A stretch of DNA of 64,000 bases from Polytrichum commune (lineage: Eukaryota > Streptophyta > Polytrichopsida > Polytrichales > Polytrichaceae), in assembly GCA_950295325.1 (NCBI GenBank), contig OX485808.1:26990527-27054526 (forward strand), written 5' to 3'. How positions within the stretch are numbered: position 1 is the stretch's first letter; each line of letters begins with the position of its first letter. This document shows, piece by piece, positions 50,001-58,400 of the stretch. The notes beneath the pieces were generated by a model. It was given only the letters and a program-made list of their open reading frames with translations, made no database searches and was not told where the DNA came from. The position numbers were made by a program, and so were the translations under genes.

Positions 50001-50648
50001 ACCTGACTTAGGCGGTCACTGGTATTTGGTCATCATGGCAGGTTTTGTCTATGTCCCGGTGGGTACGAGGTTAACAGCCCTCGAATTGTAGAAGCCATTT
50101 ACAACGATTGTATACCTGTAGTTCTTGCGGACGCATTTGTGCTACCGTTCAGTGACGTGCTAAACTGGAGCGCATTTTCGCTCCATATCAAAGAGAGTGA
50201 CATCCCCAAGCTTAAACAAATTTTGCAGTCCATCCCCATGGATATATGCATATCCATGCAGGTACACCTGATCTTTTGTTTCCTTTAGCATGCTTATCCG
50301 AGACCTAGACTTACTGGACATTATGAGAGAATTAGTGATGATTGTCAAAACATCTACAATTGTTAACATTAGCTCCTCGTATTTGTAAACGTCTGGTCAT
50401 TTCACGGTTTGTACGGTTCCTGTCCAGAAAATTTGCACCTCACCTTTAGGTCAGTGTCGACACAGATACCAGATTATGGACTTCGGCTCTCAGACGTGTA
50501 CATTTTTGTTTTGGGCGTGCAGGAAAAGGTGAAACAAGTTCAACATCATTTTTTGCTGAATCAACCGATAAAACGTTATGATGCCTTCCACATGATTCTC
50601 CACTCTGTATGGTTGAGGCGTTTGAATATCCGCCTAAATTCAATGTAG
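47051..50648 (+). CDS. GT47 exostosin-family glycosyltransferase (At5g03795-like clade)
   Basis: Seven exons: 47051-47276, 47649-47749, about 48101-48276, 48460-48820, 49447-49766, 50042-50261 and 50523-50648, giving about 509 residues. It is a predicted type II Golgi protein: residues about 22-40 ([19 protein letters not shown]) form the anchor, followed by a variable stem. The catalytic region starts at [20 protein letters not shown] and runs through [94 protein letters not shown] and the C-terminal [20 protein letters not shown]. These match the plant GT47 clade of uncharacterised At5g03795/At3g07620-type enzymes, not IRX10. The acceptor polysaccharide is unknown. The start of exon 3 is uncertain (47921 is also in phase); the other junctions are firm. 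There is a telomere-like AGGGTTAGGGTTTAG at about 49860 inside an intron. Confidence 0.9.
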
Positions 50649-52814
50649 TTCGTGTGCAATACCATCTTTAGTTTTAGAACCCATCATCTTCGTCCTTGTG
50701 ACACGTCCACTTTTAAAAATGAAAAGATGTGTGCATCATGAATCATTTTTCCAATTTTTGAGCAATTCATTTGCAATCATCTTTATAGCCTTTTCGAAGC
50801 TTGGTCATGTCCAATTTCTTTCTGCTTCTGGGAGATTTGAGATTATCTCTTGCGATGTGCCCCCGGGACTCTTTATGAAAGGAACGAGGTTTTGTGGGTC
50901 TAATTTTGTAGTTTCACTAAATGGTTTGTTCTACACTGTATTTTGGAAGTTCATTTCACGTTACTTGTTGGCCTACGTGTTTATGGCGAGCCCAGTAACT
51001 CAATAGACCCGACCTTTTCACTTGAATGCTCGAAGAGACTACACATTCGTTAAAGCATCAAGGGATTGAAATCCTGAATTGACCATTTGATTTCGGAATA
51101 CGTGAAACCAGTTCGGAAATTGCCCTTGCTTGCGTTTAGAAGTAATGGGTCATCTGAAGCAACTGGAACAGGTTCAGAACTAGACTATTAAAGGTTTGAG
51201 CGTTTGCAAGTATCTCTTGCTAGTCAAATTTGTGACGTCACGAGGTTTGCACTGATGAAAGGGCTAGAAAACTGAAGCAAAGTGGACGGCGAAAGGACAC
51301 TTGGGGATCCTTGTAACTTGCTGGTAAACCGTGAGAACCGAAAGGTCGCACCAAGGCATTGTCGCTTGGATGACAAAAGAAGTATTCTGAGAGGTGAATA
51401 CCACCCCCTCCTGTAATATTTCTGCATCTGTTGCTTGATGCAATTGTGAAAGCAATTAGATCAGTTTGAGAAAAAAATTCCAGCTAAAAGTTGGGGACTT
51501 CTAGTTTACCGGTGCATATTAAACACAGAATATCGATTTCATGCTGGAAATTATTTTCGTGGAGAGCGGCCAAAGGTAATATACATTTTCGGTCCGTGTA
51601 GAGTTGATGATGAAGAGGCACACTGTTCTGAATTAGTGTCTTTCAACAATTCTCAATATGTGATCATAGCAATCACGTGATTAGTGTATTCAAGTTCCGT
51701 ATGTAATATGTTACTGAAATGAATAGGATTACCCTTTAATTAATTACCATCACCTCAAATAGATTTTGCAAATTCAATCAGCTTATGAGGATACACTTCC
51801 CTTTTTTGACAAAATGTCCTTGATGTTCGAATTCTCAACTCCCTCTGTACATGAGCGCAACATGAGCAACATGAGCGCCGATGAAATTCATAAAGGTTAT
51901 TCCAGTTATGACGTTATCAACGGTTGTATTCTTGCTCTGTACTTACTGACACACTTGTACTTCTTCACGAAGGGCTACTACATCTGAAGAAACGGACGCA
52001 GCCTGTTGATTTATAGAACTTAAGAGCCTGAAACTTGGCGTACATCATTTCCTGCATGTCCCTTCGGAAAGTAATAATTCGAGGGGCAAGCCTGATAGAA
52101 CTGTGAAGTACTCAGTTCCAGGATTATGTGTGCATGGAGCACTAAGATTTTGAAGACCAATGCTTAGGAGGTGCATTCATGTTCAGACTCTGTAAGGTAA
52201 ATTCACTGCTTCCTGGAAACCCAGCATTGAGCCTTGTACTTCAGAGCATATTCACGACCTCTGAATTTGGGTCTCTGGTATATTCGAAGTATGAATATCA
52301 TCAACATCGCTGCGTTTACAATCTGATGATGTGCCACTTCCTGACTGGACTATCTGCATGGTCATGACAGGGAGGTGGCATACGTGTCAGGCTGATTTGA
52401 AATTCTTCGTGAGGCACCTCGGAATGTATTACAAGAATGCGAAAGCCCAAGAGCTTTGTATGGACAGGGGAGCCGTTTTAACCAGCTTCAGTAACGAATT
52501 CCTGCTTGTTATCGAGATTCGTCGAAGGAGTTGCGATCAACCCAATTTGTCAATCAAGTATACAATCCTCACCAATTGCGAAGTCTTGGAAAAATGAATG
52601 TCATCTTTATGTTTACTGAGGAGGATCTTGAATCGTATGTTTCCTTCCATGAAGCCATCATCAACTGCAACCCTGAGCCTGGCCCTTACTTAGATGTGTT
52701 CATTCTTGACGTTTGCAAAAGCATGTGGAAAGCACAGGCTCTTGTGTTTGAGCACCTTTATCCGCATACAATGTAGCCATAGTCACTATTATCAAATAAC
52801 GGGATACTCTCAGT
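50649..52814. other. Region without a recognised gene
   Basis: Several ATG-started short frames (51796-51987, 52594-52776) lack known domains. Some could be upstream exons of the gag-like gene at 52815, but no splice model is compelling. Confidence 0.4.
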
Positions 52815-55493
52815 ATGATAAGTGATTTCTCAACGCTGGTCAATGAGTCGAGCTGCTGGAAGCCAATGCGGTCGTGGACAGCAGGGAATATGTCTCGTAG
52901 ATACCACCCACTCAAGGAGAAGGGCCAACAGAGCCATATTGCTGCTGCTGCTTCCACAAGCAACAGGATTAGTGGAAAGACATATGCATTAAGCTTTCAA
53001 CTACGGTCTCTCTTCAAAGCTTGCATCAAGGCCGTGTTTCACGAACCTGCCCTAGGTGACATTATCATTTTCCCTTTCTTTGGAGAAGAGAACCCAAAAG
53101 TGGCTGCGAAATGGATCTCAAGTTTTGTCAAGTGGGCTTTATCAGAGAAACTAAATGCGGAGCAGCAGCATTTGTGTGCATCTGCTGCCTTGTTTGGTTC
53201 TGCCTCCAACTGGTGCACGAAGATGCACCTCGAGCGGGCGACGTGGGAGGAGTTCTACTTCCTCTTCAGGGAGAAATACGTAAACAAGATACTCGAATGG
53301 CCAGGTATTCTTCTGCTGCAGAATGATTTGGATTTGCCAATTTTAAAGTTCAGGAAGCCAAAAGACTTATGGGACTAGAAGTACATCAAGGTGGGGTCAA
53401 AGAGGCCAATTCCCTGGAGTAACGGAGTGTAGTGGCCTCTAATGATCCAGCTGGAACAAAGACTGGAGACTACCTAGCGGTACATTTTGAAACAGGAAAG
53501 GAAATCCATCTCTAATGGAGTTGTAGAGGAGACATCTCAACACAAAATGTGATCAACTATATTATAAGAGAAAAAATGGCATGAGATGTTATCTCTAAGG
53601 ATTTGGAATAGTCAGTCACCAGCCAATTTCAGTGGCGAGTCTATGGTTTGAGGTGCAGTAAGCAACAATGGTTTTGCGTTCGGGTGGTGACAAGGGTTGC
53701 TTGAAGTACGCTTCAAATTCATAGTTGAGAAAGTCCTCGAGGTAGTCTAGTCTAGAATTGGGGTTCGATGGTCTGTTCCATAAGGTTTTGGTTGATCACC
53801 AAGCAGCCCATGTGAAATGTTCTGCTATGGTAGACTTTGTATCTATTGCATAATGGTGTTCTGACAAATTCTTGTAATACTCGGTGAAGCCTTGTGAGGA
53901 AAACAACCAGTATATTTTATTTAAGTTTCTATAGATTCACTTATGGGAGGCTCGAGCAGAATAGTGGTGTCTCCTGTAAATATATGTATTATCCGGTTGC
54001 CAGCAATTTTACTCGTAAATATCTTCTGAAATTTATAATTCCATCATCTACTTGTCATTAACTTGGAGCTTGTCCCACAGGATCGCATTTATATCCTTAT
54101 TTTTTATACTGCAATGGCGAGATAAAGGACGATGGCACAGGACAAGCTGCAATCCAAGCAGTGCTAACAACCCCATCCCTTGAACATGACTTTGGTCATT
54201 TGAGCAGGAGGCTTGACTTTGAAGAACACTTCAAAATTTTGGTGGAGTTTGAGGCTCTCTCCGAGGGACTCCGAGTTGCACAGCAATATGGAGTAAAACA
54301 CATCCTGGCTTGGGGAATTTCCCGCAAAGTTCACGAACGTGTAAGTGACTATTCCTCCCCCATCCTTTGTAAGAGATGATTAACGTGGATGTAATTATAA
54401 TTTTTGGTTTTTCAGATTTACTGTTGCTTTCTAACACATTACTGCAGACCTCCAAATTCAACTGTGGTGAGGAATATTTCTCATGGAGATCAAAGGAGAG
54501 ACCAGAGAAATCCAAGTATATGTAGGTGACGTTCTGGTGTTATCAGGGTCGGGTTTCATGTAGGACCATTCACACATTACCCCCATGGCACCCACTTGAA
54601 TGTTGGGGGTTTTCATGTGAGCATTAATTTTACTTGCCCGTAATTATAGTGTGATCCACCTATGAATCCCAGTAGTTGCTCTACCCACCCTTTAGACTTA
54701 GACTTGCACGTGGCGGTTGAAGGCTTTTCCACCTTGAGTAAATTCATGACTCAAGGGAGGGTTGCAGTACATTCTTAACTCCACTTCATGGATAGGATTT
54801 TCTACTCCGCTATTTGAGAGACATAGAGACGATTTCCCATTACTTTGACCACATTTACGAAGCCTGAATAAAAACTGACCCTGAAAAGTTTCACACAATG
54901 GCCACGATCATCATCCACTGAATGACGTTGCATTACGGACTAGTTAAACAGGGAGAGGAGAGTGGATGACGAGCTGCGCGAGTCATCTAAGTTGTTTATT
55001 GGACATAACCATTCAGCTTGTAGACAAAATATGGGATTTGTGGATAATACTGCATCTCCCATGGATGAGACATTTTAACCGTCTTGGTCTTGGATGAGCA
55101 ATCTGCTATGGAATCTGAACATCATTCGTGTTTGCTTGGCAGGTGAGGAAAAGAGCATGGAGCTCTGCGCACAGAGCTCTCCACGAGGCCCTGCTCAAAT
55201 TGCAAGCACTTGTCAACCAGTTTGAAACGTTTGAAGTTCGGTATTGCGATTTAGAACAAAACCACTTGGTAGCAGAGGTTGCACACCAAACTATCACTAC
55301 AATCCTTGATGGCAAGGAAGCGGTCTGTTTGTACCCTCGATCAAAGTTCCACCAATCTCAATCTCCGGAAAGGAGCAAAACAACAATATGTCCGCAAGAC
55401 TTAGTAGCTGCGGACACTTGGGACACTGAAGAGATCCCTGGTCGACCTCAGACAAACCCACAAAGAAGTCAATGTGGCCTACTCCACCGCTGA
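52815..55493 (+). CDS. Putative gag-like plus RNase H-like gene (retroelement-derived)
   Basis: Proposed exons 52815-53304, 54081-54340 and 55143-55493 total 1101 nt (366 residues), with GT/AG junctions and consistent phases (1, then 0). Residues about 87-157 fit the Retrotrans_gag pattern: FFGEENPKVAAKW, then LFGSASNWCTKMHLERATWE with following F and Y (W100, G128, A130, W133, W144, F147, F151, Y155). Residues about 165-305 fit an RNase H-like fold of the RVT_3 kind: EFEALSEGLRVAQQYGVKHI, a C-terminal FETFEVRYCDLEQNH then VAEVA. The usual catalytic DG is NG, the DS after the fourth strand is IS, and the last D is E, so nuclease activity is unlikely. No reverse transcriptase, protease or integrase was seen. 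Alternatives: a decayed Ty3-type element with chance phase agreement (gag alone stays open to 53378), or a domesticated host gene. The two domain matches are firm; the splicing is inferred. Confidence 0.55.
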
Positions 55494-58400
55494 CCAAACC
55501 CGAAATTTATCTACACTACGTTGTAGATTTGCCATCCCCTTACCTTGAGTGAGAAATTAGTGGGGCTCAATTGCTACCCCTGCGGCTCTGGGTCTCATCG
55601 CTCTCAAAGGGGCCTCCAAGGGTTTTGAATCCGGGCCTTCAAGCAAAAGCGAAAGCGTAGGCATCCACCAACCGAACGACACAACTCCAAGGTGAAAACG
55701 TCGCAACCCACTTTCATACTTCAACAAAAATAATCCTTTTATAACACCACACTACCATAATTACTTCGGTTACCTCTTACACGAGTACCTTGGATAGAGC
55801 CCGCCTCTAAAAGAAGGAAGCGGCTTGCGGGTGAAGAGTCTCTTCATTCATGCTTGCTCCATCTAGAGCCGACGTTTATATCTATCTATCTAGTTGACGA
55901 GTCGTTGCAGCCTATAATATTGTCATTGCTAACCAAAATGTGACAAGGTTGGAAGTAGCATGAATAATTCTCAAATGGTTTGGTTTGGTTTGGTTCACAA
56001 TGATTCCACTTTTTGTAGGTGTGAGGATAATATTCCACAACGTTAGTAAACCACTTGGCTTTCCCTTCCCCCTCCTCCCATGAGCTTGGTTATATCAAAT
56101 GAATATTTGACAAATACCCTACCCATTCCCTCTATAGGTTCTCAACTTTGTGAGCTCATCTATATCAAACACAATTTTAGATGCAAAAATTGTGAGATGA
56201 CATGAGTGGATAGAAAGTTGTCACCAAAGCATCTCAGGACTAAAAATAATCCTTGAAATGTGTGTTGATTCACAACATACATGGAATTGGTATAGCTTTC
56301 ACGACAATTTTTGAACTTGCAATTGACAACAAGCAATTGCAGGTTGCCCTATAAATGTCATTTCTCCAAAAGACCTTTCTTACATTTGTGGGGACACTAT
56401 CAGGTATGAATTGGTGTATAATCCAATATCCTCTCGTTATTTCATGGGTTAGGTATGGTATGTCTTTCAATTAATTGGCTAGTTATAAGAGGAGATGGGT
56501 GTTTGGGACTAAAAGATCCGAGGGTTTCTCACAAGCCTGAGTATTTAAAATTTTCAACCTCACCATCTAAATACTACTCGTTGATAACTACTCGAATAAA
56601 TGACACAACTTTGAGTTTTGCCAATACAACCACCCAGCAATGGTCATGAGTCTATGAGTCCTAGGCTAACTCCTTGGCTTGGCCTTTGTGTTTGTGAGGT
56701 ATTGTGGCTTTACTTGTTACTCATGGCAATGAACTTTCTGTCCTCAGATTTTGTTTACACCATGGGCAAAATTTGCTACATATGACCTAAAAGATTACAT
56801 CCACAAGAGATTTTATAGATTTGCATCTTGATTCTTTCACGTACTTGACCTTATTTTCACCCAACTTCCTTCAATCAAAGAACCTTGCAAAACGAATACA
56901 ATTTTTTTTATATGAACTAAATAAAGATGGAGTTTACAACAACAAATATCAATTTATTTGTTTTAGTCCCCAAAGCCATTTCAAGGCTTTGTAAATTTGC
57001 AAGTTTATGCATTGAACAATCAAAATGAATTGCAATCCAATGATATGGATATATGGCAAAGTACATCTTATTAAACTCATACTAAAGTAAAATTGCACAA
57101 CTAATTCTATATATTTGGGGTATGGGAGAGAAGAGCAATTCTACCATTCTTTGATCATTTCCATGATAGAAATGTGCATATCTAGAAGAAGAAGAAGAAC
57201 TCCGGTCTCCGGAGGAGGCCGGAGTGAATAAAGTGTCTGTTCTCCGTTCCTAAGCTCCAAAACAGTTAGCCATCAATGTTGACATGTTGAGCAGATGCCA
57301 CAAGAATTGTCTGGAACATTATACCGATTTGTGCAACGATCTAAGACAACACAAGCCCAAAGTAAATCTATCTACATCAATACCGGAGTCTCATGTAACA
57401 TTTTTTCACCTACTATTTGGCAACACATCATGGTTGGATTAAATACTCTAGTCACTCTAATTTTTGCATTTTCACACCGATAGCTTGGAAATATTTTGGT
57501 AGAAATCATGCAACATTGTAGAAAAGGGTGCAACCATCCCCCTAGTCAATACAAAAAATTGGCCCTCCAAACATGTTGGAACTATTTTATTCCACAATTG
57601 GACAAGTATGGAATAAAATGGCCTAACTACAATGTTCTCTCTAGTGCACCATATCCCAACAGTACTCCGCATATTCCATGACACACATATTTAGAAGACC
57701 TTAAGTCCACTCAAATGTGTTTCATTCTAAAACATACTCAAAGAAACTTCTCTATGGCTAATGTATTTTAAAGTAATTCTAGCATGTTTTATTTTTATTT
57801 TTATGATTTATGTAATAAATATTGGCCATTAGGTGGGCCCAACCAAGTGACAAGTGACAACAACCCATTCCTACCCAATCATGGCTATCAGCTAATGTAC
57901 TTTTCCCTTGGGGAGGTTACATAACATTACTCAACGATGTGGGCCCTTAGAATAGAACAGTGGGATGTTGGGAGCTCATGCCCCGATCGATCACACCAAC
58001 CTTTCTGTATGCTCCGAGCTGCGAATTTGTTGGGGATTCTGTTGAGAAATAGATGTTGGCCTGCCACACTTCACATTATTAAACCAAAGATGTCGACGGA
58101 GGGTGCCAGAAGTGACCAGTGTGATGAACTCCTCAGTGTTATGAATCTGAGCCTCCATGTGCAGCTTTTCGAGCATCGCATGTTGTATTATGAGGGCCCA
58201 CAAAACGAGAGTTGGACGTTGAATAATAATGTTATGTGTGCACATCATTGAAAAACTTTGTAAACAACGTTAGATCCGAATGCACGAGGTGGGTGTTTTC
58301 GAATGTGTGGTTCGATCGAATGGGCTTGGGGTGAGAGGGCACAATCTCTTCCCCATGGAAATTATGTGACCGAATCCGCATATATGACAATTGTGGAACG

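Follow-up and report, generated by a model that had tools for sequence, protein, structure and literature searches.

A moss gene model combining Ty3-type capsid and RNase H-like domains is probably a domesticated host gene and not a decayed element

Animals have domesticated capsid genes of Ty3 origin, with mammalian Arc, PNMA and RTL among them, and capsid assembly occurs in this group, though not in all members. Fv1 is a capsid-targeting defence. Tat LTR retrotransposons with an additional RNase H include a structure, numbered 4, in which an RVT_3 frame stands before gag; the available text of PMC10508981 places it in four mosses and one clubmoss. The Ty1 restriction factor p22 is made by the element itself and comprises the C-terminal half of Ty1 Gag, according to the available text of PMC4599808, which mentions no RNase H for p22.

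We analysed a 64,000-nucleotide stretch of the Polytrichum commune genome (the window) and found a gene in which a gag-like exon is joined to an RNase H-like domain. Like domesticated Ty3/Metaviridae capsid genes such as Drosophila Arc1, it has a Ty3-type capsid domain, is present in low copy and is without reverse transcriptase (RT) or integrase, but only the N-terminal domain of the capsid is seen here, with an RNase H-like domain joined to it across an intron. With cellular RVT_3-type RNase H genes (loci L013-L018 of this genome; PDB 3hst, the RNase H domain of Rv2228c) it shares the fold family, and with L013-L018 also the position of an internal intron, whereas the fusion adds a capsid domain and has two to four of its four catalytic columns changed. 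It resembles Tat structure 4 in having gag near an RVT_3-type RNase H, but as far as the available text of PMC10508981 describes that structure, RNase H precedes gag, without introns and within a larger element, whereas in the fusion gag precedes RNase H and introns are present. With Ty1 p22, as portrayed in the available text of PMC4599808, only the proposed action is alike, a piece of Gag acting on Gag. The sequence marks of a domesticated Ty3 capsid gene are found here, namely capsid homology, selection at the level of the family, and, in the frames and flanks covered, the absence of RT, integrase and repeats of 40 bp or more. A non-exhaustive literature search of titles and abstract openings found no report of a plant domesticated Ty3 capsid gene fused to RNase H. 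Read from sequence, the locus is probably an intron-bearing host gene with three dispersed paralogues, in which a Ty3-type capsid N-terminal domain is combined with a duplicate of an RVT_3-type RNase H of the cell. Its intron record would trace the two halves to different sources, so that the joining of exons from a transposable element and from an enzyme of the host becomes readable, and the presence of only four copies makes loss-of-function tests on element activity feasible.

The three exons of the window copy (490, 260 and 351 nt; Table 1) join in frame to 1101 nt, that is, 366 codons with a single terminal stop. The earlier note had proposed one spliced model of three segments, and the continuous frame, the GT..AG introns and their phases of 1 and 0 agree with it; we infer that the gene is transcribed and spliced as drawn. 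The start codon was placed by analogy with the copies on contigs C1 and C5. That the gene model lacks RT, as also noted before, was borne out by the window introns and open frames, which held no RT-sized frame between the gag and RNase H domains. No repeats of at least 40 bp were found around the window copy (50500-57500). The genome searched comprises 408 Mb, with its seven largest known contigs at 42-78 Mb. In it the gag-exon DNA of the window copy had one match (very common words skipped), and at the protein level there were only four diverged loci. Repeated-element status was rejected on these two counts, and in these searches the many similar copies that the earlier note had named as contrary evidence did not appear. 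A bacterial promoter scan is uninformative for a plant. Upstream, a 93-aa open frame on the plus strand (52495-52776) stops just short of the proposed start codon; its matches to families stayed within noise, and a search of nine loci returned nothing for it. The closest recognisable upstream gene shows the end of an Exostosin GT47 domain, in an exon at 50007-50288 (+).

Table 1. Features of the fusion gene, in window coordinates
Feature	Position	Strand	Basis
Exon 1, with proposed start codon, an N-terminal stretch and the N-terminal domain of a Ty3-type capsid	52815..53304	+	open frame
Capsid N-terminal domain core	53067..53288	+	PF19259 residues 85-158, weak
Intron 1 (phase 1, 776 bp), within W-x-G	53305..54080	+	GT..AG
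Exon 2, in which the RNase H domain (RVT_3 type) begins	54081..54340	+	RVT_3 17.1 bits alone
Asn at first catalytic Asp column	54113..54115	+	RNase H alignment
Glu retained at catalytic Glu column	54245..54247	+	RNase H alignment
Ile at second catalytic Asp column	54317..54319	+	RNase H alignment
Intron 2, 802 bp, phase 0, GT..AG, 8 residues past second catalytic Asp column	54341..55142	+	
Exon 3: C-terminal RNase H part, variable tail and stop	55143..55493	+	RVT_3 after joining exon 2
Ala at last catalytic Asp column, Glu next	55272..55274	+	RNase H alignment

The gag-type core previously read in exon 1 is weak singly, the exon alone giving E values of 0.056 and 0.043 against PF19259, both below the cut-off. 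Support comes from a profile built on all four loci, for which the top PDB match was the Drosophila Arc1 capsid (E 4.2e-6). This match spans residues 10-81 of 170, in the leading half of the chain; only the N-terminal domain is seen, and the C-terminal domain is absent from the match. Element gags extend past the N-terminal domain, where the fusion gene has intron 1 and RNase H. A single-sequence structure model of exon 1 had a mean pLDDT of 40.7, too poor for a structure search. Ty3-type gags are numerous in the genome, some of them within open frames >1000 aa. The search for a donor gag covered 20 gag pieces, taken from two 150-row lists of scored matches, together with the gags of loci L022-L024. 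Against these 23 element gags the family profile reached a top score of 12.8 bits (L040), and 7 scored above 6.7 bits, the highest value among 460 shuffled sequences. By these scores the element gags compared appear related to the family, none of them closely. A gag profile, A3, was built from 11 of the 23, and in hhalign the family profile aligned with a mixed gag profile of the genome's elements at a probability of 57.3 (E 1e-4).

The fusion is found at four loci, one each on the large contigs C6 (the window), C1, C2 and C5. In a protein search the window gag exon was 31-37% identical to its paralogues on C5, C1 and C2, and each of the remaining gag exons, used as a query, recovered the identical four loci and no others below E 0.3. 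At each of the four, the gag exon is followed on the same strand by RNase H exons 184-776 bp away; this exceeds chance, which would put an RVT_3-like exon in such a place at roughly 7e-5 per locus. These downstream exons were located with window exon 2 at C1 and C2 and with PF13456 at C1, C2 and C5, and the window RNase H exon, missing from the PF13456 genome list, rests on direct domain and spliced-domain matches. Intron 1 is in phase 1 and lies inside the same W-x-G in all copies (776, 662, 184 and 570 bp), and exon 2 of the window is 37-38% identical to those of the C1 and C2 copies (tblastn). Each half is weak when scored alone, as would be expected of a gag remnant lying by chance beside an unrelated RNase H gene, but pairing, order, strand and intron phase are repeated at four diverged loci, and we regard such an artefact as very improbable. 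Ten chosen frames of L010-L012 gave no match to RT or integrase. In C2 and C5 the final RNase H exon was no part of the model, and profile search found it at E 1e-4 and 0.004, respectively; Pfam placed RVT_3 on the final exon of C5 (3e-4) and gave no match at E 0.1 on those of C1 and C2. Reading by eye, there is an apparent additional intron in the gag part of the C2 copy and another in the RNase H part of the C5 copy. The latter (L012, minus strand, near 2694/1836) has an intron of L017 at a distance of 2 codons. Sliding of an ancestral intron common to both might explain this, which is suggestive only and was not counted.

Once spliced, exons 2 and 3 matched RVT_3 with 35.4 bits (E 1.1e-8), above the curated cut-off of 21.6 bits, and the RNase H-like two-exon domain proposed earlier is thereby upheld. 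Singly, exon 2 stayed below this cut-off and exon 3 gave no RVT_3 match. Where the alignment has D-E-D-D, the window copy shows N-E-I-A, the C1 copy D-K-E-S, the C2 copy S-T-Q-S and the C5 copy S-E-D-Q, so that two to four of the four columns are changed in every fusion copy, differently from copy to copy. The earlier note had the changes of Asp to Asn and of Asp to Ile right; its third, a final Asp to Glu, is instead an Ala with Glu one column on, and the retained catalytic Glu is a point absent from it. By its residues the domain does not match an active RNase H type 1, D-E-D-D not being retained in any fusion copy, and the RNase H domain of the fusion is apparently non-catalytic. Changes that differ between copies fit a fold kept without its chemistry. 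Among gag-less loci, L014 has D-E-D-D intact and L013, L015 and L016 carry changes of their own; because of these three, loss of catalysis is not peculiar to the fusion.

The source of the RNase H half can be read from its introns. At a threshold of E 1, a PF13456 search yielded 30 stretches, with both exons of a single locus counted separately in some cases. Its weak tail holds 11 rows, in frames of 273 to 1501 aa, and five of these places (L045-L049) are copia-type on our reading. Six gag-less loci with a donor in the RVT_3 domain (L013-L018) served for comparison; L017 we take, by its likeness, to be a canonical RNase H1. Here 'gag-less' means no family-type gag within 3-5 kb upstream, and its meaning is limited in that the family profile missed the Tat gags of L022-L024. 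The intron 2 donor lies 8 residues past the second catalytic Asp column, in phase 0, in nine of the ten loci, that is, in three of the four family loci (including the window) and in all six gag-less ones; in the C2 copy it follows after 11 residues, 3 codons on. Acceptors were read in nine of the ten, L018 by its donor only. The RVT_3 frames of L022-L024 cross this position without an intron. Because the intron is common to the gag-less RVT_3 loci and absent in L022-L024, a cellular gene is the simplest source of the RNase H. This half therefore probably did not come from a Ty3 element: the match is of RVT_3 type and the intron position is that of gag-less RVT_3 genes, and on these two grounds a Ty3 RNase H was disfavoured as donor of exons 2-3. 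The origin of this half from a Ty3-type element, as given in the earlier note, is not supported. Of its domesticated, non-catalytic protein, the spliced, gag-derived, host-type model with an apparently dead RNase H remains, and a Ty3 source for that RNase H looks improbable.

We also considered that both halves came from one moss-type Tat LTR retrotransposon, domesticated and reordered, with introns gained later. In the elements L022, L023 and L024 gag is immediately preceded by an RVT_3 frame, as in the moss Tat elements of PMC10508981 (available text), and constraining the family to group with the Tat additional RNase H (aRH) was not quite rejected at 0.05 (p-AU 0.0565). The RNase H tree of 12 rows, in which no branch is starred and three end branches are long, grouped the fusion family together (90/88) and placed it with L013-L016, separate from L017 and Tat aRH (93/93). 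That tree excludes L018-L021, the PF13456 place C3:5946351 and the one copia fragment of the alignment, and includes L015 and L017 as partial domains. The element RVT_3 is intronless and stands before gag, not after, and a later gain of an intron exactly at the boundary of the cellular genes would need coincidence. The Tat gag profile, moreover, fits the family worse than the mixed one does (hhalign probability 4.7, E 0.0086). Order and lack of introns, tree and gag-profile alignment together disfavour Tat aRH as donor, and a single Tat source seems quite improbable. On the favoured reading of two sources, a gag exon would have been recruited upstream of a duplicated, intron-bearing RNase H gene.

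The family as a whole points to long maintenance as protein. Pairwise identity among the four loci is 30-33% over the compared parts, with dN of 0.68-0.82 and a dS of about 2.5-2.8 in three pairs, the other three not being computable. When the C1 copy was evolved neutrally to 35% identity, by substitutions only, a stop arose in 500 of 500 runs (mean 9.8); because the loci diverged without stops, past selection on the protein is indicated. Codon positions 1 and 2 are more similar than position 3 in all six pairs, and the 95% interval of this difference lies above zero in five of six pairs for gag, five of six for exon 2 and two of six for exon 3. For exon 3, no pair with the window is clear of zero, and window and C1 are not clear of zero in any of the three segments. 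The last point would suit a window copy that is a decaying paralogue, no longer selected, within a family that is itself real. It has three of four catalytic columns changed, and its final exon is the most altered (12-24% identity), with identities of 24% to C1 (shuffle maximum 20%), 12% to C2 (19%) and 23% to C5 (20%), so that with C2 it is no better than shuffled. But all 366 of its 366 codons are open and its splice sites are intact, and identity over gag and exon 2 is 34-38% against shuffle maxima of 13-17%. We consider decay of this copy improbable.

How such a protein would act is more tentative. The RNase H fold may have lost cutting and still hold RNA or an RNA/DNA hybrid, and the capsid domain may dock onto Gag from Ty3 elements of the same genome; the resulting protein would be an adaptor or a trans-inhibitor of retrotransposition. 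A non-cutting, nucleic-acid-binding adaptor or inhibitor acting on Gag is our first specific choice, and a tentative one. About as likely is a protein-binding scaffold, in which the capsid domain binds peptides and the RNase H fold is structural, with no role towards retroelements; the family match falls on the Arc1 capsid N-terminal region, and altered RVT_3 domains without gag (L013, L015, L016 and L018) suggest that the fold is kept for other uses. For the adaptor or inhibitor, a narrower version would be a factor that restricts or senses retrotransposons, the capsid N-terminal domain finding Gag particles and the dead RNase H holding the RNA/DNA hybrid. This version is rather unlikely, as is, by analogy, the parallel it would offer: a plant counterpart, probably in mosses, of defence of the Fv1 kind.

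Two further groups of loci were seen elsewhere in the genome. Dispersed gag-like frames (L035, L036, L044 and about three dozen others), many of them 240-460 aa and stop-free, match only the middle of PF19259, at about 74-153. At L018 (C2:37452000-37460000, minus strand 3773-2847) there is a degenerate RVT_3 domain with DS changed to SS, which at 21.1 bits falls just under the cut-off and has the same Q|GT donor. The N-terminal stretch before this domain resembles plant RBR-type E3 ligases.
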